From Acinetobacter sp. C32I (GTDB lineage: Bacteria; Pseudomonadota; Gammaproteobacteria; Pseudomonadales; Moraxellaceae): DNA of 64,000 nt. Below, in pieces: positions 25,810 to 42,142 of this stretch. The notes under the pieces were generated by a model, which had not been told where the DNA came from, did not search any database, and saw only the letters and a program-made list of their open reading frames with translations. The first letter of the stretch is position 1; the number at the start of each line of letters is the position of its first letter. The stretch is taken from assembly GCF_023702715.1 (NCBI RefSeq), contig NZ_CP098480.1, forward strand, positions 248,001 to 312,000. Direction: 5' to 3'. The translations under genes were made by a program, and so were the position numbers.

Positions 25810-26198
25810 ATTTACATGGTTTAGTGCGTGGTGCAATCAATGCAGTCAATCCAGATATTCCAGCATGCTTGCATAAGGCTACAGGCGAATATGAGACAAA
25901 TGACGCAGGTATCCGCACCCCTAAGTACAGAATCTCGAAAGGGAAAATACAAGTTCAGGGTGTGAATGGTCGTGACCTTGAGCGCCTAAACAATTTGAAC
26001 ATGCAGGGTATATTCCGCACTGTTTATCTTTATGGCGAGTTAAGCGGTATTGTTAGATCCAATCAGAAAGGCGGTGATTTAATTGAGTTCGCCGATGTTG
26101 GTTGCTGTGAGCAAAAGAAATGGCTTGTTGTTCAGGTTGCTGAAGTGTGGCCAGATTGGTGTAAGGTGATTGTATGTCAACAAACCAACCAGACTTAA
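25806..26198 (+). CDS. Hypothetical neck protein
   Basis: The protein has 130 residues. GKIQVQGVNGRDLERLNNLNMQG, then FRTVYLYGELSG, show a small beta-sandwich, common for head-tail joining proteins near this position in myophages. It overlaps the genes on both sides. The assignment is positional. Confidence 0.65.
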   Translation: MNLHGLVRGAINAVNPDIPACLHKATGEYETNDAGIRTPKYRISKGKIQVQGVNGRDLERLNNLNMQGIFRTVYLYGELSGIVRSNQKGGDLIEFADVGCCEQKKWLVVQVAEVWPDWCKVIVCQQTNQT

Positions 26199-26632
26199 CA
26201 GAACAAGATTTATATACGGCGATTCGCCGTTTTATTTTGTCTGTAATTCCTGAATCAGAGGACGTAATTCAAGGATTACAGAATCAGATTGCTATGCCTG
26301 ATAAGGCGTTTATAGCAATGACGACATTGTTTAATGATCGAATAGCAACCAATCACTTTGATTACGATGTGGGCAAAAAGGATATTGTCCAGCCTCAAAA
26401 ATGGACAGTCCAGATTGATTGCTACGGCGAACCATCAAATGCATGGGCAACCTTGCTGACCACATTGTTTCGTGATGAATATTCCACCAGTCAATTTCCT
26501 GAAAATATCAAGCCGCTTTATGCGGACGATCCAAAACATTTGCCTATAGTCAATTCTGAGCAGCAGTACGAAAAGCGCTGGATGATTACGGCGTGTTTTC
26601 AGGTAAATCCGAAAATGAGTGTTAGTTTATGA
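26174..26632 (+). CDS. Neck terminator protein (gp12-like)
   Basis: The protein has 152 residues. LTEQDLYTAIRRFILSVIP, then MTTLFNDRIATNH, QPQKWTVQIDCYG and WATLLTTLFRDEY match the neck/tail terminator family (LIC_12616 type). It caps the tail tube and joins it to the neck. A perfect palindrome ACGGCG-ATT-CGCCGT (26216-26230) lies in its 5' part. Confidence 0.8.
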   Translation: MSTNQPDLTEQDLYTAIRRFILSVIPESEDVIQGLQNQIAMPDKAFIAMTTLFNDRIATNHFDYDVGKKDIVQPQKWTVQIDCYGEPSNAWATLLTTLFRDEYSTSQFPENIKPLYADDPKHLPIVNSEQQYEKRWMITACFQVNPKMSVSL

Positions 26633-27546
26633 AAGTAATTGGTGCTAAGTCCTTGGTACAAATAATGCCAAGTGTTGTGGTGGCAAAGCAAAGAGTCACA
26701 CCAGGTGTTTATGAATATGACAGCACTCAACCGCCGCTGATCAGCTGTGATGGTGCTACTCCAAGCGCAAGATTTTCATCAACTGGTAATAATATTAATA
26801 ATTCAGGTTATAACTTGGTCATTAATGATGTTTTTTACAGAGATTTTAATTGGGATAGCCTAGGAGAAACATCATATCTGGAACATGTGATAAATACGGT
26901 TGTTCCGCCTAACACACTAGAAATTGAAGCTTGGATATATGATGGTGCTACATGGCCAACCGATTGGACAATTAAGAATATTTCTAATGAAAATCTTAGA
27001 ATACTTATTGCCCCTTGGACAAGTGCATGTGATTTTGAAATTCATCCAGAAAATGAAAATCCAACAATATTAAGTCCAAATGAAGGTCAGTTTCAGTTCT
27101 GCCTATCCCCAATGTCAAATCAGATCAGTTGTGATGGTGCAACGAATCAGCTAGTTATTTCAGCATCTTATAGTGTTGACCCATTTCCTGATGAACGTTG
27201 GAAAATGGAGATTACTGATGCTGTTACAGGTGTTTTATTTACATCGTTGACCAATTTATCTGTTGTGGAACCTGACCATTTAAGTGTTTCATTAACCAAG
27301 AACAAAACCCCTGAATGTCCGTTTGAGTTCAGCCTCGAAAACGAAATTGATTACAACACTATTATTCAGAATGTATCAGGTAGTGATGTGAGAATGAAAT
27401 TAAAGTTTATTGAGCTAATAGATGATGGCGAGGACCTAACAATTGAGTTTTGGGTCAGAGATGGATCTACACCAGTAAATTGGATAACTAATGTCGAGGG
27501 TGAAGATTACGAACTAACAGCTTGCCTATCACCAACACCAGTTTAA
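26629..27546 (+). CDS. Virion-associated protein sharing the sheath N-terminus
   Basis: The protein has 305 residues and no recognised family. Its first 18 residues (MKVIGAKSLVQIMPSVVV) align with those of the sheath protein encoded next (MKTIPANQLVNVLPSVVG). The rest holds two related units: ISCDGAT recurs near residues 36 and 166, and IEAWIYDGAT/IEFWVRDGST recur near the end of each unit. It may be a tail decoration or receptor-binding subunit that assembles through the shared N-terminal arm. A terminator follows. Confidence 0.65.
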   Translation: MKVIGAKSLVQIMPSVVVAKQRVTPGVYEYDSTQPPLISCDGATPSARFSSTGNNINNSGYNLVINDVFYRDFNWDSLGETSYLEHVINTVVPPNTLEIEAWIYDGATWPTDWTIKNISNENLRILIAPWTSACDFEIHPENENPTILSPNEGQFQFCLSPMSNQISCDGATNQLVISASYSVDPFPDERWKMEITDAVTGVLFTSLTNLSVVEPDHLSVSLTKNKTPECPFEFSLENEIDYNTIIQNVSGSDVRMKLKFIELIDDGEDLTIEFWVRDGSTPVNWITNVEGEDYELTACLSPTPV

Positions 27547-27558
27547 AAAACTAAACTC

Positions 27559-27580
27559 AACCACCTACGGGTGGTTTTTT
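27559..27580 (+). terminator. Intrinsic terminator upstream of sheath gene
   Basis: AACCACC-TACG-GGTGGTT is followed by TTTT. It lies 24 bp before the sheath ATG. Confidence 0.8.
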
Positions 27581-27603
27581 ATTGCCTAAACAAAGAGGAA
27601 ACT

Positions 27604-29073
27604 ATGAAAACCATTCCTGCAAATCAGTTAGTGAATGTTCTGCCATCCGTTGTGGGAACTGGTGGTTCAGCGCTATCTCTCAATGGGGTTATTTTAACAA
27701 CCAATGAATCATTGCCCGCAAAGTCGGTAACGCCGTTTGCAACTCGCGACGATGTTAAAACCTACTTTGGCATTGAATCTGAGGAGTACGCAGCAGCGAC
27801 TATTTACTTCAAAGGCTTCGATGGTTCAAACATTAAACCCGGTAAAATTTACTTTGCCACTTACTTAGCCACAGATGTAGAAGCTTGGACCCGTGGTAAT
27901 AGCTTAAACTTCACATTGGTTCAATTAAAAGCACTGTCTGGAAGCTTGAGCATCGATATTGATGGGCAAACCAAAACAGCAGCAAATATCAACCTTTCAG
28001 CTGCGACTAGCTTTGCGAATGCTGCAACCATCATCGGCACGGCGATTAGCGCCAACGTTACCTATGATGAGTTTTACAAAGCCTTTGTGATTCGCTCAAC
28101 AAGTGAGTCGATTGCAGATTCAACTATTGATTTCGCAACTGGAACTCTAGCTAGCTCCTTGCTTTTAACACAAGATAAAGGTGCGATTCTGTCACAAGGT
28201 GCTGAAGCTGATACACCTGCAACCGCTATGGACAATGTGACTCAACAGACGCAGAATTGGGGAACATTCACAACCTTATTTGAGCCTGATTCAGATAATA
28301 AAGTTGCATTTGCTGAATGGACCAATAATCAGGAATTACGTTATGCCTATGTCATGTGGGATACAGACATTCAAGCGACTCAAGCTGATGGCCAATCAGT
28401 AGGGGCATATCTAACCACCTTAAATTATGATGGAACAATCCCTGTTTACGGTGAGCTAGATAAAGGTGCTTTTGTCTGTGGTACTGCAGCTAGTATCGAT
28501 TTCACTGAGTTTAATGGGCGCATTACCTTTGCCTATAAAGGACAAGCAGGCATTGCCCCAAATGTCACCGATACAACCACAGCCCAAAACCTGCTAGCCA
28601 ATGGTTACAACTTTTATGGCGCGTATGCAACGGCAACAGAACAATTCAACTTGTTCCAGAATGGGCAGATTACTGGTGTATGGCGTTGGGCGGATACCTA
28701 CATCAACCAAATCTACCTGAACAGTCAATTGCAACAAGCAATCTTGATCATGCTTAAAAGTATTAAGTCATTGCCATATAACAATGATGGTTATGGTTTG
28801 ATTCGAGCAGCCTGTTTAGATCCAATTAAGGAAGGCTTGAATTTCGGCTCTATCCGAACAGGCATTCCATTGTCCGAGGAACAGAAGTCTGAAATCAATA
28901 ACGCAGCAGGAAAGCGTGTAGATGACATTCTTACAAACGTTGGTTGGTACTTACAGATTTTACCAGCAACAGCTCAGGTCCGTGGCAACCGCACATCACC
29001 ACCAATGAAACTTTGGTACACAGACGGCGGAAGCATTCAAAAAATTGATCTTGCATCTATTGATGTGATGTAG
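27604..29073 (+). CDS. Tail sheath protein (DUF3383)
   Basis: The protein has 489 residues from ATG 27604, which follows AGAGGAAAC; an upstream in-frame start at 27571 would lie in the terminator. It is of DUF3383 type, with VLPSVVGTGG, then FATRDDVKTYFG and YAAATIYFKG, and the C-terminal RADxRxx-like RVDDILTNVGWYLQILPA. It forms the contractile sheath that drives the tube through the envelope. Its presence identifies the phage as a myovirus. Confidence 0.9.
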   Translation: MKTIPANQLVNVLPSVVGTGGSALSLNGVILTTNESLPAKSVTPFATRDDVKTYFGIESEEYAAATIYFKGFDGSNIKPGKIYFATYLATDVEAWTRGNSLNFTLVQLKALSGSLSIDIDGQTKTAANINLSAATSFANAATIIGTAISANVTYDEFYKAFVIRSTSESIADSTIDFATGTLASSLLLTQDKGAILSQGAEADTPATAMDNVTQQTQNWGTFTTLFEPDSDNKVAFAEWTNNQELRYAYVMWDTDIQATQADGQSVGAYLTTLNYDGTIPVYGELDKGAFVCGTAASIDFTEFNGRITFAYKGQAGIAPNVTDTTTAQNLLANGYNFYGAYATATEQFNLFQNGQITGVWRWADTYINQIYLNSQLQQAILIMLKSIKSLPYNNDGYGLIRAACLDPIKEGLNFGSIRTGIPLSEEQKSEINNAAGKRVDDILTNVGWYLQILPATAQVRGNRTSPPMKLWYTDGGSIQKIDLASIDVM

Positions 29074-29092
29074 GCAGGGGAGAATTATATAA

Positions 29093-29524
29093 ATGGCAAC
29101 TATTACAAGTGCGAATAGCACATTCAGCTTAACAGCTACAGAGGTTTTCCCTGCACCGCAAAACTTGCAAGGCTATGCAACTGATGACGCTTTCGCCGTT
29201 GACGCAATTGATCTGGCTGAGGCGATTATGGGTGTGGATGGTCGCCTAAGTGCTGGTTATACACCGAATCCAACAAAGATCAACGTGGCATTACAAGCTG
29301 ATAGTCCAAGCATCGCCGTGTTTGATGCTATCATTGCGGCTACAAAAGCAGCCCGTGAAGTGATCTTTTTAGACGCTGTTATTGGCTTACCTGCAACTGG
29401 TACCAACTATACATTTACTCGCGGTGTCATTACCAATGCAAACCAATTGCCAGATGCAAAGAAAACATTGCAACCTCAAAAGTATCAAATCACTTTTGAG
29501 TCAGTAACCAAGGCAATTGTATAA
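29093..29524 (+). CDS. Tail tube protein (DUF3277)
   Basis: The protein has 143 residues. SANSTFSLTATEVFPAPQNLQGYATDD, AIMGVDGRLSAGYTP and the C-terminal KTLQPQKYQITFESV fit DUF3277 tube proteins. It polymerises inside the sheath and is followed by a strong terminator. Confidence 0.87.
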   Translation: MATITSANSTFSLTATEVFPAPQNLQGYATDDAFAVDAIDLAEAIMGVDGRLSAGYTPNPTKINVALQADSPSIAVFDAIIAATKAAREVIFLDAVIGLPATGTNYTFTRGVITNANQLPDAKKTLQPQKYQITFESVTKAIV

Positions 29525-29548
29525 CCCCACACATCAAAAACATTCATT

Positions 29549-29579
29549 AAGCCTGTGACCATAAATCACAGGCTTTTTT
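29549..29579 (+). terminator. Intrinsic terminator after tube gene
   Basis: AAGCCTGTGA pairs with TCACAGGCTT around seven bases and is followed by TTTT. High-level tube expression followed by reduced chaperone expression would fit. Confidence 0.9.
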
Positions 29580-29595
29580 AATAGCAGAGGCAGAC

Positions 29596-30006
29596 ATGCG
29601 TAAGACCGGCACAGTACTTATTGACCAGGATAATCGTGATAAGGGCAAAAAGTTTTTAATCACAGAGATGTCAGCATATCAAGCTGAAGCTTGGGCAACC
29701 CGTGCACTACTTGCATTAACAAATGCAGGGGCAGAAATTCCAGATAACGTTGCTGAGATGGGCTTAGCAGGGATTGCTAACGTTGGCTTTAGTGCGTTGT
29801 CAAAGTTGCAATATGATGATGCAAAGCCGCTTTTAGATGAGCTTATGGATTGTGTGCAGATCATTATGCCTGCAATCACACGACCGCTTATCCACGGCGA
29901 TGATGGCGATATTGAAGAAATTTCAACATATATGAAGCTTAAAAAGGAAGCGTTCATGTTGCATGTAAATTTTTCCAAAGCCGAGAAAGCCCCGATTTCG
30001 GAGTAA
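29596..30006 (+). CDS. Tail assembly chaperone, short (G-like) form
   Basis: The protein has 136 residues and is helical, with the sequence MRKTGTVLIDQDNRDKGKKF and YQAEAWATRALLALTNAG. It lies between tube and tape measure, the usual chaperone position. The slippery heptamer A-AAT-TTT (29967-29973) lies near the 3' end, and the -1 frame continues openly to 30197. The unshifted product stops at 30006. Confidence 0.82.
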   Translation: MRKTGTVLIDQDNRDKGKKFLITEMSAYQAEAWATRALLALTNAGAEIPDNVAEMGLAGIANVGFSALSKLQYDDAKPLLDELMDCVQIIMPAITRPLIHGDDGDIEEISTYMKLKKEAFMLHVNFSKAEKAPISE

Positions 30007-30197
30007 GTATCGGCAGCAATATTGCCCTTCTTGAATATCTTAATGTACCCGCAATCATTGGCACGATCGTCTCTAGTCGGTTGGCAACCTTAGCGGAATT
30101 GCAGTCTGTTTATAGTGCTGAAGATGCCTATAACTTTTTAGAAATCATCAGTATTAACAATTACAATGAGGCGAAAATTAATGGCAACAGTGATTGA
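29596..30197 (+). CDS. Tail assembly chaperone, -1 frameshifted (GT-like) form
   Basis: A -1 slip on AAATTTT at 29967-29973 joins the first 126 codons to a 74-codon extension ending TGA at 30195-30197, giving about 200 residues. The extension (NIALLEYLNVPAII, RLATLAELQSVYSAEDAYNF) reads as folded helical protein with no stop and has no start of its own. Lambda G/GT and many other phages make both forms. The tape measure ATG (30181) lies inside its end, a normal overlap. Confidence 0.8.
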
Positions 30198-32316
30198 TGC
30201 TCTAGTAATGACCCTTGGGCTAGATGCCTCTGACTTCAATAAGAATAAGGACCTGGTTAAAAAGGGTGGTCGTGAACTTACTGAAGAAAGCCGAAAGCAA
30301 GCAAAGCAGATCGAGGACGGTTTCAAAAAAGTCATTTCTAGCGTAAATGAATTTAAGAAGGTGATGACTAGTGCTTTTGTCGCCGTGGCGGGCACTTCTG
30401 GACTCAAAGACCTAGTAACAGATGTAATTCTGGTTGAAGCAGCTTTGGGGCGCTTATCGTCTCATACAGGGCAAACAACACAGGAATTACATGCGCTTAG
30501 TAATATCGTCGAGCAGATTGGCGGTAAAGCTGACGAAACTGGGCAAAGCGCTAGCCGTTTGGCTCAGGAAATTACAGGGATATTCTATAAGGGTGAATCA
30601 GGTCCAATGACCGATTTCCTTTCTATGATGAATATCCAGTTTGCTGATGCTCAAGGCAAGGCGCGTGACTTGAGTGCCATCTATTTGGATCTAGCGTCGA
30701 AGTATGACAGCGGCAAATTTAGTAAAGAGCAGTTCTTTAGTCTTACTACAAATGCGGGTTTCGGTGCTGGTGAAGTTGATGCGATTATGAAAGGGCGTGT
30801 TGAGCTTCAAAAGATGATTGAAACTCAGCAAAAGAACTCTTTAATCACACAGAAACAAGCGGAAACGGCGCGTGAATTAATGCGCTCATTCACAGAGTTA
30901 AAGCAAAATGTAGCTTCAACATCCCGTGAGTTTGTAGATTTTGTGGCACCGTATCTGCATGAGTTTCTTGGTACCTTAAAAGAGGTGTTTGGGTGGCTTG
31001 AAGAAAACGAGGATTTCGTTGTGGGTGCTTTGGCCGCAATTGGTGGTGTAATAGCCTTAACGCTGGTCCCTGCACTTGCAGCCGCAGTGGCGCTGACTGC
31101 ACCGGTTGCGGCACTAGCGGCAGCTATTGGCCTGCTTTGGGATGATTACCAAGCATGGAAAAAAGGCAGTAATTCCTTCATCAATTGGGCAGTTTGGGAA
31201 AAAGAGATTAAGGACGCAACTGAAGCTTTGGATAAAATGTGGGAATCTTTAATGCGACTCACAGGTTCTACTGATAAAGTTTTTAGTTTCAAAAGTGTGC
31301 TTAAAAGCGCGTTCGGTGAAATTGGAGATATTCTTCACGGTGTTTTGAGAACAATCACTAATGTAGCGACTGCTTTAGAGTTTCTGTTTAACGGCGATTG
31401 GAAACGTGCAGCCCGTGTTCTGATTTCTACAGAAAGCAATGAGGCCATCAGAAATTTAACTGATGAACAGCTAAATCAGCCTGTCCCAAAACAAAATTTG
31501 GACGCTTCCATGGGTGGGTGGGGCCTAATTAAAAAAGGTTTAGCCAATAACCCAATGAACCCCGCAAATGTGCTTAGGTTTCTTCGTAGTCATCTAGTGG
31601 ATCGACCACCAGAACAACCAGCCCTTCCTTATGCGCCACAACAGCAATCGCAATTACCAAAAGGGGAAACTGAAAATAGAACTAAAATAGCAATTGATTA
31701 CTTTGTTAGTAAAGGGTGGACAAGGGAACAGGCGATTGGACTTGCAGCTAATTTACTAAGTGAAAGCGCCATGAAAACGAATGCTGTAGGTGATGGTGGA
31801 AAAGCCCATGGTCTTGCACAATGGCATCCTGCACGCCGTGCTGATTTAGAAAAGTATTTGGGCAAACCAATTTTAAGTGCTAGTTTTCAAGAACAACTTT
31901 CTGCTGTTCAATATGAACTAACAAAAGGTGGTGAAATTGCTGCAGGTAACCGATTGAGAAACGCACGATCGGCAAGTGATGCTGGATCAATAGTATCGCG
32001 ATATTACGAGCGTCCCAAATATGTTGAGGAGGAAGCAAGGAAGCGGGCTGATTTAGCCAACAGGATGGCAGGTGGAGGGTTTTCTCCGCGTGGAGCAGGT
32101 GCAAGGGGGCAACAAGACATTAAGCAAGCTGGACTAGGTGGTACTGCAAGTGTGAATAATCGCGCTAATGCTTTTAGCGCTGAAACCCATATTGGTCAGA
32201 TTCATATTCACACACAAGCTACTGATGCAAATATGATAGCCCAAGATATTTCCAGTACTATCACTGAAAAAAATCGGGCTTTTGAAGTTTATAGATTTGA
32301 TTCTGGTATGAGTTAA
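30181..32316 (+). CDS. Tape measure protein with tail lysozyme domain
   Basis: The protein has 711 residues from ATG 30181, which follows GAGG; an in-frame ATG at 30166 lacks such a site. The N-terminal 270 residues are helical coiled coil. A hydrophobic region lies near 280-320. Residues about 500-610 form a phage-tail lysozyme-like domain (SKGWTREQAIGLAANLLSES, with the Glu and KAHGLAQW), which cuts peptidoglycan on entry. At about 1.5 angstrom per residue the tail would be near 100 nm, a family rule and not measured here. Confidence 0.9.
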   Translation: MATVIDALVMTLGLDASDFNKNKDLVKKGGRELTEESRKQAKQIEDGFKKVISSVNEFKKVMTSAFVAVAGTSGLKDLVTDVILVEAALGRLSSHTGQTTQELHALSNIVEQIGGKADETGQSASRLAQEITGIFYKGESGPMTDFLSMMNIQFADAQGKARDLSAIYLDLASKYDSGKFSKEQFFSLTTNAGFGAGEVDAIMKGRVELQKMIETQQKNSLITQKQAETARELMRSFTELKQNVASTSREFVDFVAPYLHEFLGTLKEVFGWLEENEDFVVGALAAIGGVIALTLVPALAAAVALTAPVAALAAAIGLLWDDYQAWKKGSNSFINWAVWEKEIKDATEALDKMWESLMRLTGSTDKVFSFKSVLKSAFGEIGDILHGVLRTITNVATALEFLFNGDWKRAARVLISTESNEAIRNLTDEQLNQPVPKQNLDASMGGWGLIKKGLANNPMNPANVLRFLRSHLVDRPPEQPALPYAPQQQSQLPKGETENRTKIAIDYFVSKGWTREQAIGLAANLLSESAMKTNAVGDGGKAHGLAQWHPARRADLEKYLGKPILSASFQEQLSAVQYELTKGGEIAAGNRLRNARSASDAGSIVSRYYERPKYVEEEARKRADLANRMAGGGFSPRGAGARGQQDIKQAGLGGTASVNNRANAFSAETHIGQIHIHTQATDANMIAQDISSTITEKNRAFEVYRFDSGMS

Positions 32317-32594
32317 TTTTTATTGAGCTTACACGGGAGCCAGTATTTTTGATACTCATGGGCATCTTCAAAGTTTGCACCCCAGCACCAACCGTTCTTT
32401 TTAATCTTTTCTGCTAATTTTTCTTGCTCTTTACAAGCCGTCCATGTCTGCGGCTTATCCCCAGATCCACCGCGACATTGATCAGTGAGTATCTCTAACT
32501 TTTCGATGTCCTTTTGGATTTTCGCTGGTGGAAAATATTGAGCAAATACAGTGGTAGGTGCTAATAGGATAATTAACAGAAAAATTGGTTTCAT
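32313..32594 (-). CDS. Secreted cargo protein (small)
   Basis: The protein has 93 residues with a clear signal peptide (MKPIFLLIILLAPTTVFA, cut after AFA-type site). The mature part has four Cys (QCRG, TACKE, GWCWG, LPCK), probably two disulfides. It is transcribed against the late operon between tape measure and baseplate genes, overlapping the tape measure stop by 4 bp. It is probably expressed in the lysogen. The function is unknown. Confidence 0.72.
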   Translation of the reverse strand: MKPIFLLIILLAPTTVFAQYFPPAKIQKDIEKLEILTDQCRGGSGDKPQTWTACKEQEKLAEKIKKNGWCWGANFEDAHEYQKYWLPCKLNKN

Positions 32595-32639
32595 GACATT
32601 ATTCCATATGTTGTTGTAGGTAATAGTCCATTTATGATT

Positions 32640-33377
32640 CTAATCTTTAGAATAGTCATGGAGTGAATTTCTTTTAGTTCTTTCCTTGTCATATTTCTGA
32701 ATATCCACCAAGCATTGTTTCTTGAAATTATTCATAAAGGTGTTGAGTTTTGAAGCGTATTTTTTATCTGAAAAAATCAACTTTTTGATTTTCTTGTCTA
32801 AATCATAAATTTGATAAGGTGTGTAAGGAATACTATCATCACTTGACATGATTGTACGGTCCTCATCCATCAAGTCTAATGGCATTTTCCCGTAAAAAGC
32901 ATCTTGATAATCTGAAATGGTTCGATTTAAATGACCCACGATCATTCCACAGCGTTGTTTATATCCACCTGGGATGTTTGGGTCATCAAAACTTCCTACC
33001 TTATAGTTGGGCTTTTTACTATCTTCGTATTCTTTAACTACTGATTGAAGCAAATTACTTGTTTTTTTACACGCTTCCAATTTTTTTGCAGAAGTGAAGT
33101 TTTCCTTCTCTAATTCTTTGATTTTCTGTTGAACTAAATTTTGATCTGGTTTTATTTCATTTGGTGAGAAATTGCATCGTTCACTCTCCATCTGTTCTAT
33201 TGTTTTTAATAACAATTTCTGCTTGGGTTGATTATTAAAACCACAGGTTTGAAATACAGCACGCATGAACGAGAGGTTATCAATACTTTCCACTTTTGTG
33301 CAACCGTCCATATCTACATTTTCTGCATGACCATAGATACACTGGCCTAGAAGTAAAGCTAACAGTATTTTTCTCAT
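32640..33377 (-). CDS. Secreted cargo protein (large)
   Basis: The protein has 245 residues, with signal peptide MRKILLALLLGQCIYGHA. The mature part is Lys/Glu-rich, helical and contains several Cys (DGCTK, QTCGF, RCNFS, EACKK, QRCGM, KQCLVD). It precedes the small secreted gene in the same leftward unit. A periplasmic role such as blocking superinfecting phage is possible but unproven. It has no CGCCGT hexamer. Confidence 0.7.
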   Translation of the reverse strand: MRKILLALLLGQCIYGHAENVDMDGCTKVESIDNLSFMRAVFQTCGFNNQPKQKLLLKTIEQMESERCNFSPNEIKPDQNLVQQKIKELEKENFTSAKKLEACKKTSNLLQSVVKEYEDSKKPNYKVGSFDDPNIPGGYKQRCGMIVGHLNRTISDYQDAFYGKMPLDLMDEDRTIMSSDDSIPYTPYQIYDLDKKIKKLIFSDKKYASKLNTFMNNFKKQCLVDIQKYDKERTKRNSLHDYSKD

Positions 33378-33447
33378 ATTCTTCCCCCTTTTTAATAAAT
33401 CAATAATTTATTTAAAAAGAGTTAATCAAGCAAGGATTTTAATATTG

Positions 33448-33469
33448 AAAGCCCTGAGGGTTTTTTTTT
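33448..33469 (+). terminator. Terminator bordering the CRISPR-like array
   Basis: AAAGCCC-TGA-GGGTTTT (one G-T) is followed by a long T-run. The first array repeat begins within that T-run (33467). It would end late transcription before the array. Confidence 0.65.
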
Positions 33470-33614
33470 ACTCATCGCACAGATGATTTAGAGACTCAGA
33501 TTTGCTTGTGCAAGTAAAGCAACATCGTTATTCATCGCGCAGATGACTTAGAAATCGTTAAGCTGAGGATTGCTGATCCATAAGAAGTTATTCATCGCAT
33601 AGATGACTTATTCA
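33467..33614 (+). CRISPR. Type I-F-like mini-CRISPR array, 3 repeats and 2 spacers
   Basis: Repeats at 33467-33494, 33527-33554 and 33587-33614 are 28 nt, with 32-nt spacers at 33495-33526 and 33555-33586, so the period is exactly 60. Each repeat has the stem TCATC/GATGA at positions 6-10 and 16-20 with loops GCACA, GCGCA and GCATA. An 8-nt 3' handle follows: TTTAGAGA, CTTAGAAA and CTTATTCA. This is the architecture of type I-F repeats, processed by Cas6f after the stem. By eye repeat 2 matches the A. baumannii I-F repeat I remember (handle TTTAGAAA) at about 23 of 28 positions. The last repeat has a degenerate end, as terminal repeats often do. No cas gene or obvious leader is nearby. Confidence 0.87.
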
Positions 33615-33619
33615 AACCC

Positions 33620-33644
33620 AAACCCGCCAAGTGCGGGTTTTTTT
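33620..33644 (+). terminator. Terminator directly after the array
   Basis: AACCCGC pairs with GCGGGTT around CAAGT and is followed by TTTTTT. It would define the 3' end of an array transcript six bases after the last repeat. Confidence 0.9.
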
Positions 33645-33657
33645 ATTGGAGCAAACA

Positions 33658-34398
33658 ATGGCATTAACACCTATTCCAAAACCACCATTCCCAAATGTTC
33701 CAAATTTACCAGGTGTGCCAACACTAAAACGGTTAAATAACCAGTCAACAACAGTACGCGCCGTACTGGGAAAGGTTCAGGGCGAGATATGGCGGGCATT
33801 AACCACCGAAAGCAATTGGGGTATTTTCAGCGAAAGTGGAGAGGCGCTAGTTATTGCTGACACCGTTATTGATTTGTCCTTTAAAAACTCAAGTAAAGTT
33901 TCTCAACATCCAGTAGCTGAAGGCGCATTTGCAAGTTACAACAAAGTGGCAAGCCCTTTTGAAACCACAGTTCGGCTATGCAAAGGCAGTGGATTAAAAA
34001 CATTGGGTGAGCTTGCTAATGTGCTGGAGGACGGCGCTAGTGCTTTTGGAAAGGGCGCATTAAATGCTAGGTCTGAATTTTTAGACACCATTGACGAGCT
34101 ATCTAAATCATTAACCCTTGTGCATGTAGTAACCCCCGAGAAAACATACACCAGTTGCAATATTGCTGAATACAATTATCGCCGTGAGCAAAGCAACGGC
34201 GCACACATGTTGATTGTTGATATTAGTCTGGTTGAGGTGCGACAAACCAAAGTGACCTACACTAAATCTGATGCACCAACTGCAACCGTAAATTCAAAGC
34301 AACCTGATGCCAAACCGCCAATAAACATTGGAAAGGTTCAACCGCAGGCAGTAAAAAAAGATTCTCTTATAAATAAAATCTTAGGCTTGTGGGATTAA
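33658..34398 (+). CDS. Baseplate protein (Dit-like N-terminal domain)
   Basis: The protein has 246 residues from ATG 33658 (GGAGCAAAC before it); an upstream in-frame start lies in the terminator. Proline-rich start ALTPIPKPPFPNVPNLPGVP, then DTVIDLSFKNSSKVSQHPV and VTPEKTYTSCNIAEYNYRRE fit the Dit-like proteins at the centre of myophage baseplates. It opens the baseplate gene group. Confidence 0.78.
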   Translation: MALTPIPKPPFPNVPNLPGVPTLKRLNNQSTTVRAVLGKVQGEIWRALTTESNWGIFSESGEALVIADTVIDLSFKNSSKVSQHPVAEGAFASYNKVASPFETTVRLCKGSGLKTLGELANVLEDGASAFGKGALNARSEFLDTIDELSKSLTLVHVVTPEKTYTSCNIAEYNYRREQSNGAHMLIVDISLVEVRQTKVTYTKSDAPTATVNSKQPDAKPPINIGKVQPQAVKKDSLINKILGLWD

Positions 34399-34402
34399 GA
34401 CT

Positions 34403-34702
34403 ATGCAACAAATTCCGATTCAATCCATACCATCGCAGGTTGTAAGCGTGATTCTTGCGAACCAAAACTGTCAAATATCCCTGTACCAGAAAAGCACAGG
34501 GATTTTTTTTGATCTACGCGTGAATGATAGGCCAGTGGTAACAACTCGATTAGTAAGAAACGCCGTGCCACTGGTGAGGCAACGATATTTAGGCTTTGTT
34601 GGTGATCTTATAGTGATGGACATGCAGGGAAATAAAGATCCTGAATATACAGGCCTAGGCACTCGATACATGCTCTATTACTTGGAGGCTACCGATTTAT
34701 GA
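34403..34702 (+). CDS. Baseplate plug-like protein
   Basis: The protein has 99 residues. IPIQSIPSQVVSVILANQNCQI, then RLVRNAVPLVRQRYLGFVGDL and the C-terminal YTGLGTRYMLYYL match small baseplate plug proteins of Acinetobacter/Pam3-type myophages. It is coupled to the hub gene by a 4-bp overlap. Confidence 0.8.
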   Translation: MQQIPIQSIPSQVVSVILANQNCQISLYQKSTGIFFDLRVNDRPVVTTRLVRNAVPLVRQRYLGFVGDLIVMDMQGNKDPEYTGLGTRYMLYYLEATDL

Positions 34703-35583
34703 GCAGCTTTACAAAGAAAAAAATAGATGTACGCATCACTATGGCCAATAAGGTGTTTAGTAATCAAGGTGACGCAAACACCATCGATCTATCAGGTTTT
34801 CGTGTAATTGCTGAAATCAAAAAGGTTGGTGTATTTGGTGAGGGTTTTTGTTCACGTATCAAAATCTATGGCATGAAACAAGCTGACATGAATGCATTGA
34901 GCATTTTGGCTTGGGAGGTTTTGGGCGTAAATCGAAATACAATTTCAGTTTTTGCAGGTGACGAAGAATCTGGAATGGCTATGGTATTCGGCGGCCAGAT
35001 CGCAAATGCTTGGGCGGATTATTCGGTTGCCCCTGACACCTGTTTGGTAATTGATGCTACGGCAGGTTATACGGACCAGATCAAAGCAGCTTTGCCTAGT
35101 TCATATCTTGATGATGTGGAAATTTCAGCAGTAATGAAAACCCTTGCAGATAGCATGGGTTATTCATTTAGCAACAAAGGTGTTCAAGGACGTATTACAA
35201 GCCGCTATTTCAGTGGCACATTAATGAAACAGGCCCGTGCCATTGCAGAACATGCCGGCATTGCAATGTTTATTGAAGATGATTCTTTAATAATCATGCC
35301 AGAGGAAAACGGCGTAATCGATCAGGCTGAAATTCCAGTTATTTCGCCGTCCACTGGATTAGTAGGTTATCCCACATACAACAAGAATGGGATTTGTATA
35401 AACACCTTGTTTGATCCACGTATTCAATATCGAGGAAGAATCAAATTAGAAAACACCTTGGACATTGTAAACGGTGAATGGCTTGTAATTAGTCTTTCTT
35501 ATCAGCTTGAAAGTGAAAAGCCAAACGGCGCATGGTTCTGCCAAGTCGAGGCTAGGAGATTCCAGTATGCAGCAACAGCATGA
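34699..35583 (+). CDS. Baseplate hub protein
   Basis: The protein has 294 residues. FTKKKIDVRITMANKVFS, AEIKKVGVFGEGFCSRIKIYG, then the C-terminal beta-strand repeats fit a gp27/gpD-like hub that closes the tube and carries the spike. The gene overlaps the spike gene by 17 bp. Confidence 0.8.
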   Translation: MSSFTKKKIDVRITMANKVFSNQGDANTIDLSGFRVIAEIKKVGVFGEGFCSRIKIYGMKQADMNALSILAWEVLGVNRNTISVFAGDEESGMAMVFGGQIANAWADYSVAPDTCLVIDATAGYTDQIKAALPSSYLDDVEISAVMKTLADSMGYSFSNKGVQGRITSRYFSGTLMKQARAIAEHAGIAMFIEDDSLIIMPEENGVIDQAEIPVISPSTGLVGYPTYNKNGICINTLFDPRIQYRGRIKLENTLDIVNGEWLVISLSYQLESEKPNGAWFCQVEARRFQYAATA

Positions 35584-36211
35584 GAATTTTGGACAACAAA
35601 ATAGCTCCACCACTTTAGACTCGGCCATAGCTCAGCGGTTTTTTATCAGTCAGATGCTTAATGATATTCAGACTGTTTCATTGGTAAAAGTAGTTGGCGT
35701 TAATGCAGGTGGCACTGCTCCTGTAGGGTTTGTTGATGTTCAGCCATTAGTAAACCAAATGACAGGAGATAGAAAGGCGGTTGAGCATGGGGTGATTTAT
35801 AAAATCCCATATTTCAGAATCCAAGGCGGTGCGAGTGCAATCATTATTGATCCAAAAGTAGGTGATATTGGGATGTGCGGCTTTTGCAGCCGTGATATTT
35901 CGTCAGTAGTAGCAACCAAGAAAGTCGCCAATCCTGGTTCATATCGTAAGTTTGATTGGTCCGATGGTCTTTACTTTGGTGGATTTCTAAATGGTGCGCC
36001 GTCTCAGTACATCGAGTTTACTGACGATGGTATCAACATAGTTTCATCGAAAGTGAGTTTCAGCGGTGATGTGGAAATTGAAAAAACATTGACTGTGAAG
36101 GGTGTCATGAAATCCTTAATCGATGTATTCGCCAAGACTGTTAGCTTGCTTACACATATTACAACTGGTGTGCAATCAGGTACCAGCAACTCAGGACCAC
36201 CACAACAATGA
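35567..36211 (+). CDS. Baseplate spike protein (Gp138/gpV-like)
   Basis: The protein has 214 residues from ATG 35567, preceded by AGGAGA; the longer frame from 35507 lies inside the hub gene. SLVKVVGVNAGGTAPVGFVDVQP is the OB-fold of Gp138 N-terminal domains. The C-terminal strand-rich part (SSKVSFSGDVEIEKTLTVKG) likely forms the triple-helical spike that pierces the outer membrane. Confidence 0.85.
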   Translation: MQQQHENFGQQNSSTTLDSAIAQRFFISQMLNDIQTVSLVKVVGVNAGGTAPVGFVDVQPLVNQMTGDRKAVEHGVIYKIPYFRIQGGASAIIIDPKVGDIGMCGFCSRDISSVVATKKVANPGSYRKFDWSDGLYFGGFLNGAPSQYIEFTDDGINIVSSKVSFSGDVEIEKTLTVKGVMKSLIDVFAKTVSLLTHITTGVQSGTSNSGPPQQ

Positions 36212-36558
36212 AAACTTTACTTTTAGACCAAGATACGTGGGATTTAGTGTTGGATGCTGAAGGTAATTTTGCTTTAGCTGCTGAACCCTACGCAGTAGCC
36301 CAAGATGTGGCCAGTGCGGTAAAACTTTTTGAGAGTGAGTTGTGGTACGACACATCCAAAGGGATTCCATACTTTTCTCAAGTACTGGGATATTTACCAC
36401 CGCCGTCACTTCTCTATAGCTATTTTAAAAATGCAGCCTTATCTGTTGCAACTGTGACGACCGCAAAGGTTGTTTTAAATCCTTTGGATGATCGGACAGT
36501 AACAGGTCAAATTCAATTTACAGATACATCGGGAGCAAAAGGAAGTGTCAACATCTAG
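36208..36558 (+). CDS. Baseplate wedge protein (gp25/gpW-like)
   Basis: The protein has 116 residues. QDTWDLVLDAEGNFALA, then LFESELWYDTSKGIPYF, are the landmarks of the gp25-like lysozyme-fold wedge protein. It binds the sheath and the J-like protein encoded next, with which it overlaps by 14 bp. Confidence 0.85.
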   Translation: MKTLLLDQDTWDLVLDAEGNFALAAEPYAVAQDVASAVKLFESELWYDTSKGIPYFSQVLGYLPPPSLLYSYFKNAALSVATVTTAKVVLNPLDDRTVTGQIQFTDTSGAKGSVNI

Positions 36559-37753
36559 CGTTCCAAAGATACAATTCACACCAAGCGGCCTTGTATTGCC
36601 TCAAGAATCAGTCATTTTAGACGGCGTATACCAAGACTATAATGCTGCACTAGGTGGCAATCTAAATCCTGCTTTAGAGACACCACAGGGGCAATTAATC
36701 AGCAGCACCACGGCAATTATTGGCGACCATAACAGTGCTTTTGCGGAGTTTGTCAATCAAGTAGATCCAGATGTGGCAAGTGGGTTTATGCAAGACGCAA
36801 TTGGCCGCATTTACTTCCTTAATCGTCATCCAGCAACATCAACGGTTGTTCAATGTATTTGTACTGGTGTTATTGGAACTACAATCCCACAAGGCTCATT
36901 AATTACAGATCAATCAGGCAATATCTATCAAAGCCTTGAACTTGCAGTTCTGAATGCAAGCGGGCAGGCTACAGTAAATTTTGAATGCTTGGAAACTGGT
37001 CCAATCGTTTGTCCAGAAAATGCAGTGAAAATTTATCGTGCTGTTGTTGGTTGGGAGAATGTAGACAACCCAAGTGCAGGTATCACTGGTTCAGATGTAG
37101 AGAACAGATCGGATTTTGAATTTCGCCGTAGACAGTCTGTAGCAAAAAATGCTCATGGCTCCCTGCCTTCGATCTATGGTGCTGTTTTTGATTTGGATAA
37201 TGTTATTGATGTTTATGCCATCGAAAATACACGGGGAAGTGTTGCCACAGTGGGAGCGACCAATTATCAAATGCAACCACATTCAATTTACGTGGCCGTG
37301 GTCGGTGGTGATAGTGATGATATTGGACTAACAATCTGGACTAAAAAAAATGTTGGTTGTGACTATAACGGCAACACAGCCGTCACTGTAACTGATGATA
37401 GCTATAGTTATCCTAAGCCGACTTATGAGGTTAAGTTTCAACGTCCTGCATTAACGCCTGTATTAATTGAGGTCCAGATAGCGATGAATGCACTGTTGCC
37501 CTCAAACATTAATGACCTGGTTAAAGCCGCCGTAATCAGCACTTTTAACGGCAGTGACGGCGGAGCACGTGCAAGGATTGGCGGCACCATTTTTGCCAGT
37601 CGGTTTTATGCGGGGATTAGTAAGATTGATGCACGGGTGGAGATTCTTCAGGTACTGCTTGGCTTAACCTCACCCAATGCCACATCAGTTGCACTTGGCA
37701 TCGATCAAGCACCAACAATCTCAGAGTCTCAAATTACTGTAGTGCAGGTGTGA
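36545..37753 (+). CDS. Baseplate J-like protein
   Basis: The protein has 402 residues and a GTG start. QFTPSGLVLPQESVILDGVYQDY, then GRIYFLNRHPA, VQCICTGVIGTTIPQGS and DNPSAGITGSDVENRSDFEFR are typical of Mu gp47/P2 gpJ baseplate proteins that form the wedge ring with gp25 and the next protein. Confidence 0.92.
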   Translation: MSTSSVPKIQFTPSGLVLPQESVILDGVYQDYNAALGGNLNPALETPQGQLISSTTAIIGDHNSAFAEFVNQVDPDVASGFMQDAIGRIYFLNRHPATSTVVQCICTGVIGTTIPQGSLITDQSGNIYQSLELAVLNASGQATVNFECLETGPIVCPENAVKIYRAVVGWENVDNPSAGITGSDVENRSDFEFRRRQSVAKNAHGSLPSIYGAVFDLDNVIDVYAIENTRGSVATVGATNYQMQPHSIYVAVVGGDSDDIGLTIWTKKNVGCDYNGNTAVTVTDDSYSYPKPTYEVKFQRPALTPVLIEVQIAMNALLPSNINDLVKAAVISTFNGSDGGARARIGGTIFASRFYAGISKIDARVEILQVLLGLTSPNATSVALGIDQAPTISESQITVVQV

Positions 37754-37754
37754 T

Positions 37755-38318
37755 ATGGAAAACGTACAACAGACAATTATCAGCCAGTACGCCAATAGCC
37801 CATCTATAAATCAACTCATCGAATCCATGAATGAATATATTGATCCTAGGACCAATATGGAGAATTTCTATGATTTCGTTTGGGACTTGAACACGGCGCA
37901 GGGTTTTGGCTTGGATATTTGGGGCAAGATTGTTGGTGTTAGTCGGTCGCTAAGAGTGACAGATCCAGAGGACTATTTTGGCTTTAAGGACTCTGAATAT
38001 CAGCCTTTCGATCAAGCGCCATTTTATGATGAAACGATCCCAATCGGTACAGTCTATATTCTTGATGATGTGCAATATCGAATTTTAATTATCACCAAAG
38101 CCTTGGCTAACATTTCAGCCACAAATGCACAAGCCTTGAATGCTTTGCTTAGACAACTCTTTAACAATAGGCGCTGTTATGTAGAGGAGGTGGGCGGCAT
38201 GCAGGTCAATTACGTTTTTGAGTTTGCATTAACCAACCTTGAGTATGCAATTTTGGCGCAGTCAGGGGTTGTTCAGAAGCCCGCAGGCGTAAAGATCAAT
38301 ATTAAACAAACCGCGTGA
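37755..38318 (+). CDS. DUF2612 baseplate protein
   Basis: The protein has 187 residues. NFYDFVWDLNTAQGFGLDIWGKIVGVSR is the DUF2612 signature. It corresponds to P2 gpI-like proteins connecting the baseplate to the fibres. The stop codon lies in the following terminator hairpin. Confidence 0.85.
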   Translation: MENVQQTIISQYANSPSINQLIESMNEYIDPRTNMENFYDFVWDLNTAQGFGLDIWGKIVGVSRSLRVTDPEDYFGFKDSEYQPFDQAPFYDETIPIGTVYILDDVQYRILIITKALANISATNAQALNALLRQLFNNRRCYVEEVGGMQVNYVFEFALTNLEYAILAQSGVVQKPAGVKINIKQTA

Positions 38319-38330
38319 TGCGGTTTTTTT
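38308..38330 (+). terminator. Intrinsic terminator before fibre genes
   Basis: AAACCGC-GTGAT-GCGGTTT is followed by TTTT. The stop TGA of the DUF2612 gene lies in the loop. Confidence 0.85.
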
Positions 38331-38346
38331 GTGGGAATTAATAACT

Positions 38347-39402
38347 ATGCCACTTATTCAACCAGCACTAAATGCAACTCCTTTTGCAAAAAATGGTTTA
38401 AGAAATGCAATTCCAACTAATCCAGATCCTGATGCTGAAGCGGCGGCATCAATGGAATTGGGATTCCCTGAATTAACGATGAAAAAGATCACACTGGGCG
38501 GCATTCCACCTAGTGGCCGCGACATGAATGGGATTCTAAACTTTTTGTCACAGCATCAAGTTTGGTTAAACGGCGGTGGTCAATATAAGTTTAATGCAGA
38601 TTTAGCGAATGCTGTTGGGGGTTATGCAAAGGGCGCCGTCATTGCTTCAAATGATGGGATGCGTCTTTATGTCTGCAAGATCGATGGAAACCTGAATGAT
38701 CCAAACAGTGATTTATCAGGTTGGGCTCTTTTCTCTACAGATCAATTAGAGAACATTCTAAACAGTTTGCAAGATCAAATCACAATTGAGAAAGCAGACC
38801 GAATTTATAGCGATAATCTGCTTAATGACAAGATTGACCTTGAAATTACCACTCGACAAGATCAAATAGCATCAGTTCAACAATCTATTAGCGATGAAGC
38901 AGCAACACGGTCTAATGCAGATACCAACTTACAGCAAGCAATCGACAATGAATCCAATACTCGTTCAAATGCTGATTACAACCTTCAGCAAAATATCTAT
39001 GGTGAGGAGAATGCGCGTATAAGTGCGGATAACAACCTGCAGTCCCAAATTAATGGGAAACTAGGTCTATCAGGCGGAACAATCACAGGAAATTTAACTG
39101 TTAACAATGTTTTGACAGCCGCATCTATGTATCTTGGGAACTACTCAGCAGCTCAAAATGGTTGGACGGCGTTACCAAACGGATTAATTTTTCAATGGGG
39201 CCGTGCTGATGATGATGGGAATATGAAATATTTCCCGATCGAATTTCCAAACAATGCTTTTTCCTTGGTCGCACAGCAGATTACGGGTGAGGGAACCAGT
39301 AAGGTTTATGTTGAAATTGTGAGTAACAGCGAATTCAAAATTTATGAAGGTAGTTCAGCAACTCCAAATACGAGTTTTTATTGGATGGCAATTGGTAATT
39401 AA
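38347..39402 (+). CDS. Tail fibre protein with coiled-coil repeats
   Basis: The protein has 351 residues from ATG 38347. The N-terminus (PLIQPALNATPFAKNGLRNAIP) is the virion attachment part common to Acinetobacter fibres. Residues 170-235 hold about four heptad-like repeats containing RSNADxNLQ units, a trimeric coiled coil. GGTITGNLTVNN leads to a C-terminal receptor domain. A short cryptic start at 38329 is unlikely because it lies in the terminator. Confidence 0.87.
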   Translation: MPLIQPALNATPFAKNGLRNAIPTNPDPDAEAAASMELGFPELTMKKITLGGIPPSGRDMNGILNFLSQHQVWLNGGGQYKFNADLANAVGGYAKGAVIASNDGMRLYVCKIDGNLNDPNSDLSGWALFSTDQLENILNSLQDQITIEKADRIYSDNLLNDKIDLEITTRQDQIASVQQSISDEAATRSNADTNLQQAIDNESNTRSNADYNLQQNIYGEENARISADNNLQSQINGKLGLSGGTITGNLTVNNVLTAASMYLGNYSAAQNGWTALPNGLIFQWGRADDDGNMKYFPIEFPNNAFSLVAQQITGEGTSKVYVEIVSNSEFKIYEGSSATPNTSFYWMAIGN

Positions 39403-39419
39403 AAAAGGATAATTCAGAT

Positions 39420-39737
39420 ATGAGCTGTGAATACGAATCTCTCAACATTATCCGTGGTGATTCATTTGGTTGCCAATGTCACTTCGATAATGAAAATGAC
39501 GAGCCAATTGATTTAACAAATGTGGAAATAGAGGCTTCTTTAGAGACACTAAGCCATTCATGGCAACAACCCTTAATTATCACCAAAGCTGATCAGATCG
39601 CACACAGAGGCGATTTTTTAATGTCCGCTGATAGTACGACAGGTTGGATGATAGGTGATCTACAGATCAAATTAACGCGGATTATAGGCACTGCTCGATT
39701 AAGTGTATTAATCCCAATAACTGTGCAACGGGGGTGA
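39420..39737 (+). CDS. Small fibre-associated protein
   Basis: The protein has 105 residues. LNIIRGDSFGCQCHFDNENDEPIDLTN resembles the small beta-sandwich domain found at the start of upper-baseplate proteins (BppU-like). It lies between two fibre genes and probably joins a fibre to the virion. Confidence 0.68.
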   Translation: MSCEYESLNIIRGDSFGCQCHFDNENDEPIDLTNVEIEASLETLSHSWQQPLIITKADQIAHRGDFLMSADSTTGWMIGDLQIKLTRIIGTARLSVLIPITVQRG

Positions 39738-39738
39738 T

Positions 39739-40908
39739 ATGGATAAGCTGACAATCAAAACAGAAAATATTGTTTTAAAGCTTAATACAGGTTCAATCGT
39801 TGTTACGGGTGGCGCCGTTCAATCAGTGCAAGGTAAAACAGGAGCTGTTATTCTTGATGCGATTGATGTGGATGCTGAGCCGCTAGGTAGTGTTGCTAAT
39901 CTAAAAGCTTATGTTGATGGCCAAGATGCTCTAAAGGCCAATAAGGACTATGTTGACGAAGAAAATCAACTGCTACGTGAACAGATTGATTTAAAAGCTA
40001 ATGCACAGGCAGTTAATCAAGCCTTATCGACCAAAGCTGATTTAGATGAAAGCGGCAAAGTTCCTGCATCACAATTGCCTTCCTATGTGGATGATGTGCT
40101 TGATGGTCGCTATGTAAATCCAAGCCAATTCAATGATCTTAATGGTAATCCCTACACACCAGAATCAGGCAAAGTTTACGTTGATGTAGACACCAATAAG
40201 ACATATCGCTGGAGTGGCATGCTGTATGTTGTTATTGGTGGTGGAGGTGTTGCTTTAGGTGAAACCTCAGAAACTGCATATCGCGGGGATAGAGGTAAAG
40301 CTGCTTTCGATCACAGTCAATCACAGGGCAATCCGCACAACTCTACGACGAGTGAAATACCAGAGGGAAATAGACAATATTTCACTCCTGCGCGTGTACG
40401 AGCCACAGACTTAACCGGCTTAACTCCAACCACAGGAACAGTAAATGCAGCAGACAGCTTTTTGGTGGGGTTTAACAAAATTGTTGGAACATTAGCAGCT
40501 GTTGGGCCACCAACTTGGGTAAGCGTAAAAACCCTAGCCGGCATCACTTGGCATTCGAGTGTAGATGTAGCAAATAGCACAATTGAGCTAGCAAAGATTA
40601 ATGGAATGTTGTGGTTAAGGGGATGGATTAGAAGTACAGCAAATATACCTGGGAACGTTCCGATAGTGCTTTGGACGCAAGCTTCATGGCAGGTTGATGT
40701 TAGTGGGCTAGGATTGGGTTCTAGCTATTATTATGTTGCGGCAGGCATAACTGTTACTTCAACCGTTTCATCAACAACACCGAATACATTGAGCTGCGAA
40801 CAACAACTTGCACTCATCAACAATGGTACTTTTTTAAAACTAAATGCCTCTTTTGTTGGTGCAGGTATTTTTGGAATACCAATGTTTTGTTTGGGTCGGG
40901 CACTTTAA
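39739..40908 (+). CDS. Second tail fibre / receptor-binding protein
   Basis: The protein has 389 residues. The N-terminal GGAVQSVQGKTGAVILDAIDV is a fibre/knob motif. A coiled-coil region with KANKDYVDEENQLLREQ follows, then GDRGKAAFDHSQSQGNPHNSTTSEIPEG, a short collagen-like or collar motif widely seen in fibre proteins. The C-terminal 130 residues are likely the receptor-binding domain. Confidence 0.83.
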   Translation: MDKLTIKTENIVLKLNTGSIVVTGGAVQSVQGKTGAVILDAIDVDAEPLGSVANLKAYVDGQDALKANKDYVDEENQLLREQIDLKANAQAVNQALSTKADLDESGKVPASQLPSYVDDVLDGRYVNPSQFNDLNGNPYTPESGKVYVDVDTNKTYRWSGMLYVVIGGGGVALGETSETAYRGDRGKAAFDHSQSQGNPHNSTTSEIPEGNRQYFTPARVRATDLTGLTPTTGTVNAADSFLVGFNKIVGTLAAVGPPTWVSVKTLAGITWHSSVDVANSTIELAKINGMLWLRGWIRSTANIPGNVPIVLWTQASWQVDVSGLGLGSSYYYVAAGITVTSTVSSTTPNTLSCEQQLALINNGTFLKLNASFVGAGIFGIPMFCLGRAL

Positions 40909-40957
40909 GTCTTAAAAAGTCTTGAAATATAAATTTTATAAATAATCGTTCAATAAT

Positions 40958-40979
40958 GCGGCCATTGGTCGCTTTTTTT
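40958..40979 (+). terminator. Intrinsic terminator after fibre genes
   Basis: GCGGCC pairs with GGTCGC (one G-T) around ATT and is followed by TTTTTTT. It precedes the lysis cassette. Confidence 0.7.
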
Positions 40980-40998
40980 ATATCTGGAGTAAGTAAAA

Positions 40999-41382: not shown

Positions 41383-41400
41383 TAGATCCAGAAATTCAAT

Positions 41401-41423
41401 GCCGCCGTTACTGGCGGCTTTTT
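41401..41423 (+). terminator. Intrinsic terminator between holin and endolysin
   Basis: GCCGCC-GTTACT-GGCGGC is followed by TTTTT. It overlaps a CGCCGT hexamer (41403-41408) in its stem and loop. Confidence 0.8.
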
Positions 41424-41443
41424 CATATCAAGAGGATAGTGAA

Positions 41444-41998: not shown

Positions 41999-42009
41999 TT
42001 TATCACTGT

Positions 42010-42135: not shown

Positions 42136-42142
42136 CAAAAAA

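Follow-up and report, generated by a model that had tools for sequence, protein, structure and literature searches.

A leaderless type I-F mini-CRISPR array without cas genes in the tail operon of an Acinetobacter prophage

A prophage of Acinetobacter sp. C32I carries a leaderless type I-F mini-CRISPR array without cas genes, and comparison with related arrays suggests that its function is most likely inter-phage targeting in hosts with a type I-F system of the same repeat lineage, a reading that we hold to be somewhat better than an even chance. The array was studied within a stretch of 64,000 nucleotides (the window). Its anatomy, its location inside the prophage, a slot common to this and a sister prophage, the mismatch between its repeat lineage and that of the resident system, and the CC-flanked targets of a sibling array in viral contig L005 are direct observations.

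The repeat of the resident array is referred to here as GGCG-type and the prophage repeats as CATC-type. These names are used because the printed labels I-Fa and I-Fb conflict: in passages of PMC4338279 the resident-type repeat is I-Fb, and in passages of PMC11035748 the plasmid DB053, which has the other repeat, is I-Fb as well.

Organization of the array

The array contains three 28-nt repeats and two 32-nt spacers on the forward strand, at a spacing of exactly 60 and 60 nt. Repeat 1 (33467..33494; TTTACTCATCGCACAGATGATTTAGAGA) is diverged in its first five bases, and its 3′ handle is the prospective 5′ end of crRNA 1. It is followed by spacer 1 (33495..33526; 32 nt), the complete repeat 2 (33527..33554; GTTATTCATCGCGCAGATGACTTAGAAA), spacer 2 (33555..33586; 32 nt) and repeat 3 (33587..33614; GTTATTCATCGCATAGATGACTTATTCA), which has an intact stem and a degenerate 3′ handle, as in a last repeat; neither spacer has a target in the searches described below. 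The stem TCATC/GATGA is unbroken in all three repeats. The 8-nt 3′ handle is intact in repeat 2 and has one change in repeat 1 (TTTAGAGA), and the most degenerate of the three handles, that of the last repeat, is needed by neither crRNA. The original prediction, made from the letters alone, had described this layout with its 60-nt period, a stem kept in every repeat and variable 3′ handles; coordinates and shuffles confirm the layout, and stem and handle letters are as first written.

The lineage consensus, with up to three mismatches allowed, matches the window twice, at repeats 2 and 3, and not once in 100 dinucleotide shuffles; repeat 1 is more diverged and lies outside these matches. Identity of at least 20/28 at two consecutive equal periods of 55–65 is found at 9 window positions and at none in each of 20 mononucleotide shuffles. 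Chance origin of the repeats is ruled out by these two controls. The exact core TCATCGCNNAGATGA occurs only three times in the 4.19-Mb genome, all within the array.

The features that define a type I-F array (28-nt repeats, 32-nt spacers, a 5-bp stem and a YTTAGAAA handle) are all present, as are those of a viral mini-array, namely one or two spacers and no cas genes in the genome of a virus, the whole-genome profile search being one for Cas6f only. That search adds to the earlier observation that no cas gene is in the window: the one Cas6f of the genome lies far off at C1:4107634.

The prophage and the array slot

The prophage spans 44 kb (3375..47537) between 114-nt direct repeats that are 92% alike (3375–3488, overlapping a tRNA-Val gene, and 47424–47537). 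It contains an integrase gene (4486–5622) as well as repressor, replication initiation, terminase, portal, tail, endolysin, UmuD-like and DNA-polymerase genes. The array occupies a slot bordered on the left by the tail tape-measure protein gene (30184..32316, forward strand) and on the right by a Dit-like tail protein gene (33658..34398, forward strand; PF21821). Two accessory genes in the slot are transcribed leftwards; the first (32313..32594; 93 aa) belongs to phrog_25984, of unknown function, and the second (32640..33377; 245 aa) has a secreted-looking start by eye and no family in Pfam, PHROGs or PADLOC. Neither matches a named anti-CRISPR family in these three collections.

No AT-rich leader precedes repeat 1; an intrinsic-terminator-like hairpin (33447..33465, forward strand) stands directly before it instead, and a second (33620..33640, forward strand) lies before the Dit-like gene, these two flanking sites comparing with 0.7 expected from shuffles. 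The array had been described from the letters as a type I-F mini-array inside a prophage tail operon, leaderless and between two terminators, and its anatomy, its tape-measure/Dit-like location and the hairpins agree with that description.

Expression, folding and decay of the repeats

No sigma-70-like site is called on the forward strand from 32840 to the array. Two such sites lie further upstream, the four found on both strands comparing with 4.7 expected from shuffles, and there is no room for a promoter beside repeat 1 because the upstream hairpin is there. If the array is transcribed, the transcript most likely comes from read-through of the late operon. In the predicted fold of the array region, repeats 1 and 2 seldom form their stems (probability ~0.2), the bases being mostly paired elsewhere, and repeat 3 forms its stem at 0.8–0.9. 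Hairpin-forming spacers can be dismissed as a sign of a decoy, as an equally good fold is found for 13% and 33% of 1177 array spacers. Host leaders of the CATC type, present in most arrays whose start lies in the examined stretch, end mostly in ...ACTTAACTCTA. In the sibling arrays L001 and L031, unlike the window array, the repeat is preceded by what looks by eye like the end of a leader, TTCTCTA or TTCTATA, where hosts have TTAACTCTA.

Handle changes are concentrated in last repeats: across six short arrays, 8/48 positions of last-repeat 8-nt handles are changed versus 2/88 in the others (Fisher p=0.004), with no clear excess at first-repeat 5′ ends (4/18 versus 4/33 changed; p=0.29). The decay thus falls on the part that no crRNA would need and resembles that of a crRNA-producing array. 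Because host arrays decay likewise in their last repeats, according to passages of PMC4338279, this pattern points to an array-like history and not to present use. Stems are intact in 15/15 distinct repeats of seven loci (75/75 cells), a count made without L025, L028 and L029, the last of which is chromosomal and has one pair of its stem broken, and a conservation that is partly built in because most loci were found by patterns demanding the stem. In L005, two repeats have a T-A to C-G change on both sides of the stem.

A relic is a possible but doubtful alternative, in which the array is a scrap of a CATC-type array from a former host, decaying without function. The missing leader, the lack of a nearby promoter-like site and the terminator-like hairpins on either side would suit such a passenger, as would spacers with no target found, repeats that are 23–24/28 identical to intact ones and a present host with no matching Cas6f; that scraps persist is shown by genome G150, where a single degenerate repeat lies next to a tmRNA gene (L029/L117). 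However, all three stems are intact, the changes are mostly where a crRNA needs no letters, and the sister prophage has a second array in the corresponding slot.

A resident type I-F system of another lineage

The original prediction could not see whether the host has a type I-F system; such a locus is present, but of another repeat lineage. The host chromosome has a type I-F cas set, whose genes are open frames uninterrupted by stops, and an array of 19 repeats (GTTCATGGCGGCATACGCCATTTAGAAA). The prophage repeats are only 14–15/28 identical to this resident repeat, so that the identity with host repeats reported as habitual in viral mini-arrays is absent, and 23–24/28 identical to the repeat of plasmid p1DB053 (NZ_CP087336). 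The resident and p1DB053 Cas6f proteins have no BLASTP match at 1e-3, and their Cas1 and Csy3 proteins are 45% and 34% identical (BLASTP); the two lineages share their architecture and the handle TTAGAAA. Of 175 genus genomes, 10 encode a CATC-type Cas6f at 85% identity or more and 18 have some match to it at 1e-10; the present host genome has none, and relatives of the resident Cas6f are found in 53/175. The array is not a piece of the host cas locus, the two being separated by 3.8 Mb along the contig as given (~0.36 Mb if circular), and 0/18 resident spacers match the window at nine or fewer mismatches.

The shared architecture and handle and the uninterrupted host cas frames raise the alternative that the resident GGCG-type system uses the prophage array and so protects the lysogen. 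We regard this as very unlikely, in view of the 14–15/28 identity of the repeats and the missing BLASTP match between the Cas6f proteins. A precedent comes from passages of PMC10097628, in which the creA RNA of strain WCHA45, of another I-F lineage, was inactive in A. baumannii AYE, whose locus has the resident-type repeat (PMC4338279, in part), until its second repeat was swapped for that of AYE. The same passages give psi-repeats as 46–67% identical to those of AYE, and of the two other modules one was not rescued by repeat replacement and one was not toxic. Given the lineage mismatch and the WCHA45 result, the resident Cas set probably cannot use the array.

Related arrays and the sister prophage

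The repeat pattern, with one mismatch allowed, matches 14/175 genus genomes. Seven of these (G006, G007, G014, G068, G097, G142 and G152) have long CATC arrays with a matching Cas6f. G067 has long arrays with no Cas6f match, G085 has a long array of another repeat, G147 is a 220-contig genome with a short array, G171 has a mini-array that is also found in viral contig L003, and the fourteenth is the genome of the window itself. The remaining two, G099 and G150, have a single repeat each, not assigned to a prophage. That of G150 adjoins a tmRNA gene and was not counted as a prophage array, nor was that of G099, whose flank resembles it by eye; ARAGORN found no tmRNA gene in the G099 stretch examined. 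A tmRNA gene also adjoins the end of a CATC array in G068 (L110), and the lone degenerate repeat in G150 (L117) is perhaps the scar of a lost array. The long CATC arrays of G067 (C1:2164500-2170500; L109) lie on both strands, with no Cas6f match of either lineage, and appear to be orphans. Among nine viral stretches, short arrays or single repeats are present in L001, L002, L003, L004 and L005, and longer arrays in or beside L006–L009.

Besides its sibling mini-array, G171 has a Cas6f that matches it and an array of 68 repeats. This bears on the statement in the original prediction that immunity would be argued against if no I-F cas locus occurred in hosts of related prophages and no protospacer was matched: no protospacer was found, but a CATC-lineage cas locus does accompany a sibling mini-array.

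The nearest relative found of the prophage is L048, on the same contig as L002, with a Dit protein 77% identical; Dit relatives occur in 3/175 genus genomes, the host itself included. Its tape-measure protein is 37% identical over residues 1–356. A pattern search of viral contigs for relatives of the window's tape-measure gene returned one distant contig. The slot of L048 extends from position 246, where the tape-measure gene ends, to 6001, where Dit begins, and holds LprI-like genes, an AAA ATPase, a DNA adenine methylase, a two-repeat array (4438–4525) and a PIN-domain gene. The two prophages thus have the same slot with different mini-arrays, spacers and accessory genes, since the border genes correspond and DNA similarity starts only at window position 33621. 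The AAA ATPase and adenine methylase beside the L048 mini-array (1664–4339) match the PADLOC PD-Lambda-5_B model (E 2e-118) and are likely defence genes.

Six other viral contigs (L079, L081, L082, L085, L086 and L091) contain one, two or five I-F repeats (GTTCAACATCGTATAGATGGCTTAGAAA or one base off) with partly common flanks. The upstream flank is similar by eye in L081, L082, L085 and L086, and the downstream flank is 99% alike over 221–222 nt in L079, which has two repeats, and in L086 and L091, which have one each; single repeats and arrays may interconvert in such contigs, to judge from these flanks. Upstream of the repeat in L081, by eye, lies a hairpin whose loop contains TTGACC and which is followed by TATACT. 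The I-F array region of L085 has BLAST matches in unannotated stretches of Pasteurella phages Pmp1, Pmp2 and Pmp3 (OR544132–OR544134). L077, L078, L080 and L088 have three to four I-F-like hairpins at irregular spacings of 54–62 with spacers that look hairpin-forming (by eye), and these sets could be multi-hairpin RNA decoys. A single repeat in viral contig L093 (7050–7077) is identical to the resident GGCG-type repeat and is a candidate Racr for that lineage.

Spacer targets

The original prediction looked to protospacers for the two window spacers, and none was found. BLAST returned no target in 50,697 phage records or 72,556 plasmid records, a pattern requiring 19 fixed bases to be exact gave none among 2.9 million viral contigs, and there is none in 175 genus genomes (three mismatches plus free sixth positions); a CC-flanked match at 12 or fewer mismatches is absent from 1.02 million bases of relatives, both strands counted. 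Viral contig L075 was rejected as a target of spacer 1, its 24/32 match being no better than chance given the pattern. Most spacers of known viral mini-arrays are reported to match known sequences in the passages of PMC8616872 concerned.

The sibling array of L005 does have targets, with two of its three spacers matching related viruses. The pattern of spacer b matches seven other viral contigs, with zero mismatches in four and one in three, and a CC PAM is present in 7/7. The target in L122 is typed as a tape-measure gene, and the other six frames are 93–99.9% identical to it; because the DNA surrounding the sites is 91–100% alike, the seven represent one family and not seven independent cases. 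Spacer c matches four of the seven target pieces at 5–7 mismatches, with CC in 4/4, and none of the other three at 10 or fewer. The tape-measure gene of L005 itself, identical to the target gene at 635/938 aligned residues, is spared: its c site has 9 mismatches and CA, and nothing in it is like b, the aligned site lying in a diverged part with 22 mismatches. A copy of the spacer b site in G017 has 4 mismatches and the flank CA.

For seven sibling spacers (L048, L031a, L031b, L001, L005a, L039a and L039b) the best matches in relatives are at 12 mismatches, as shuffles give; L031a was the one spacer searched individually against a collection, the arrays of L005 and L031 were compared with phages, and the rest with the loci of relatives only. 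A Curvibacter phage matches L031 spacer a at 29/32 with CC, yet at 13 places in one record, and is not taken as a true target because the gene is repetitive.

The array could also be imagined as a CreA-like regulatory guide, one that mimics a crRNA and, through incomplete pairing with a toxin or phage promoter close by, keeps that promoter repressed. Its degenerate outer repeats, and the description of CreTA for Acinetobacter I-F loci in passages of PMC10097628, would fit. The idea is nevertheless scarcely credible, as CC-flanked seed matches in the 64-kb window number 0 and 0 (shuffles 0–3 and 0–1), the best CC-flanked pairing within 32301–34700 is no better than in shuffles (158 and 153 of 200 reach it), and the array is outside any cas locus.

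Exposure of the prophage to CATC-type systems

When 1193 distinct array spacers were compared with the window, 44 non-self matches were found at nine or fewer mismatches, ten of them with CC and all ten of these inside the prophage; at six or fewer mismatches CC is present in 4/4 non-self matches, and reversed spacers gave 13 matches, 0 with CC. Phages of this kind are therefore attacked by CATC-type systems elsewhere, and this exposure supplies a reason to carry a decoy as well as one to carry a borrowed weapon.

As a decoy, the array would act as a Racr-like RNA anti-CRISPR, its three hairpins binding CATC-type Cas6f and Cas7f and starving host arrays, with the spacers as filler. The exposure of the prophage to such systems and the lack of a known target for its spacers are in keeping with this, and any expressed array may act as a decoy because non-targeting crRNA also lowered interference, as described in part of PMC10651486. 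We consider it unlikely as the function of this array. The repeats are not solitary, having one another at 60-nt spacing where the definition of a solitary repeat unit allows no other repeat within 100 bp, and SRUFinder, in the part of PMC10651486 that describes it, clusters full repeats within 100 bp into arrays and discards them. A decoy does not require spacers of exactly 32 nt, the Cas6f of the present host is of the other lineage, and neither neighbouring gene matches a named anti-CRISPR family. The decoy had been offered from the letters on an equal footing with immunity and comes out weaker, exact spacing and guide parts being kept.

Proposed function

The immunity reading, in which a phage-carried array borrows host Cas proteins against competitors, is supported for the sibling array of L005, whose guides match rival tape-measure genes with CC PAMs; for the window array itself no target was found, and the fitting Cas proteins are not those of the present host. 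Under inter-phage targeting, which we favor, the array would be transcribed rightwards, and in a host with a CATC-stem system Cas6f would cut after each stem, yielding two crRNAs, each with an 8-nt handle, a spacer and a 20-nt stem piece. With these as guides, Cascade and Cas2-3 would attack rival phages or plasmids. The array is probably idle in the present host because the resident Cas6f is of the other lineage, and spacers would be turned over by recombination and not by acquisition, since there is no leader. Evidence against this reading comes from the lack of a target for either spacer and for the seven sibling spacers, the absence of a promoter-like call between 32840 and the array, the hairpin directly in front of it, the missing CATC-type Cas6f of the host and the altered handle of crRNA 1.

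A broader idea, put forward with little confidence, is that Acinetobacter phages use the tape-measure-to-Dit slot as a weapons bay, exchanging guide arrays there much as they exchange other defence genes. An array there would be silent or armed according to the I-F lineage of the host, and in a host of the fitting lineage it would both target rivals and soak up Cas6f. A phage locus of this type could then exist in two states, single repeat (Racr) and mini-array, as hinted by the common flanks of viral contigs with one, two or five repeats.

Comparison with known systems

Virus-borne mini-CRISPR arrays were reportedly treated by Faure and colleagues in 2019. Those described by Medvedeva et al. 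2019 (PMC6858448) and Iranzo et al. 2020 (PMC7099407) resemble the window array in having one or two spacers and no cas genes within a virus, and in lacking a host-like leader; the sibling L005 is also alike in targeting a gene of related viruses while its own copy is spared. The window array differs from those accounts in that its repeats fit another I-F lineage of the genus and not the resident system, and its spacers have no known target. Among the matches listed from open-licence PMC literature, supplements aside, there is no report of mini-arrays in Acinetobacter prophages.

Racr and solitary repeat units, as presented in part of PMC10651486, are likewise phage-encoded type I-F repeat hairpins between genes; the window array differs in having three repeats and two 32-nt spacers, and in a host whose system is of the same subtype (I-F) but of another lineage. 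With CATC-stem I-F systems of Acinetobacter, such as those of p1DB053, G006, G068 and G171, the array shares the 28/32-nt geometry, the stem and the handle, whereas those systems have cas genes, mostly leaders, and spacers that show a CC PAM. Antitoxin creA RNAs, in the passages of PMC10097628 concerned, also have degenerate repeats around a spacer, but the window spacers have no CC-flanked near target that could be found.

The window array is a member of the known leaderless kind of phage mini-array, with the reported habit of matching the host repeat absent. To that kind it adds a testable Acinetobacter case in which a phage array and a resident Cas set of different I-F lineages are present in one cell, and in which whether the array is processable, by whose Cas6f, and whether it guides or only sequesters are kept apart as three questions. 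Further additions are a sister prophage whose corresponding slot holds another array, and sibling guides on rival tape-measure genes that spare their own.
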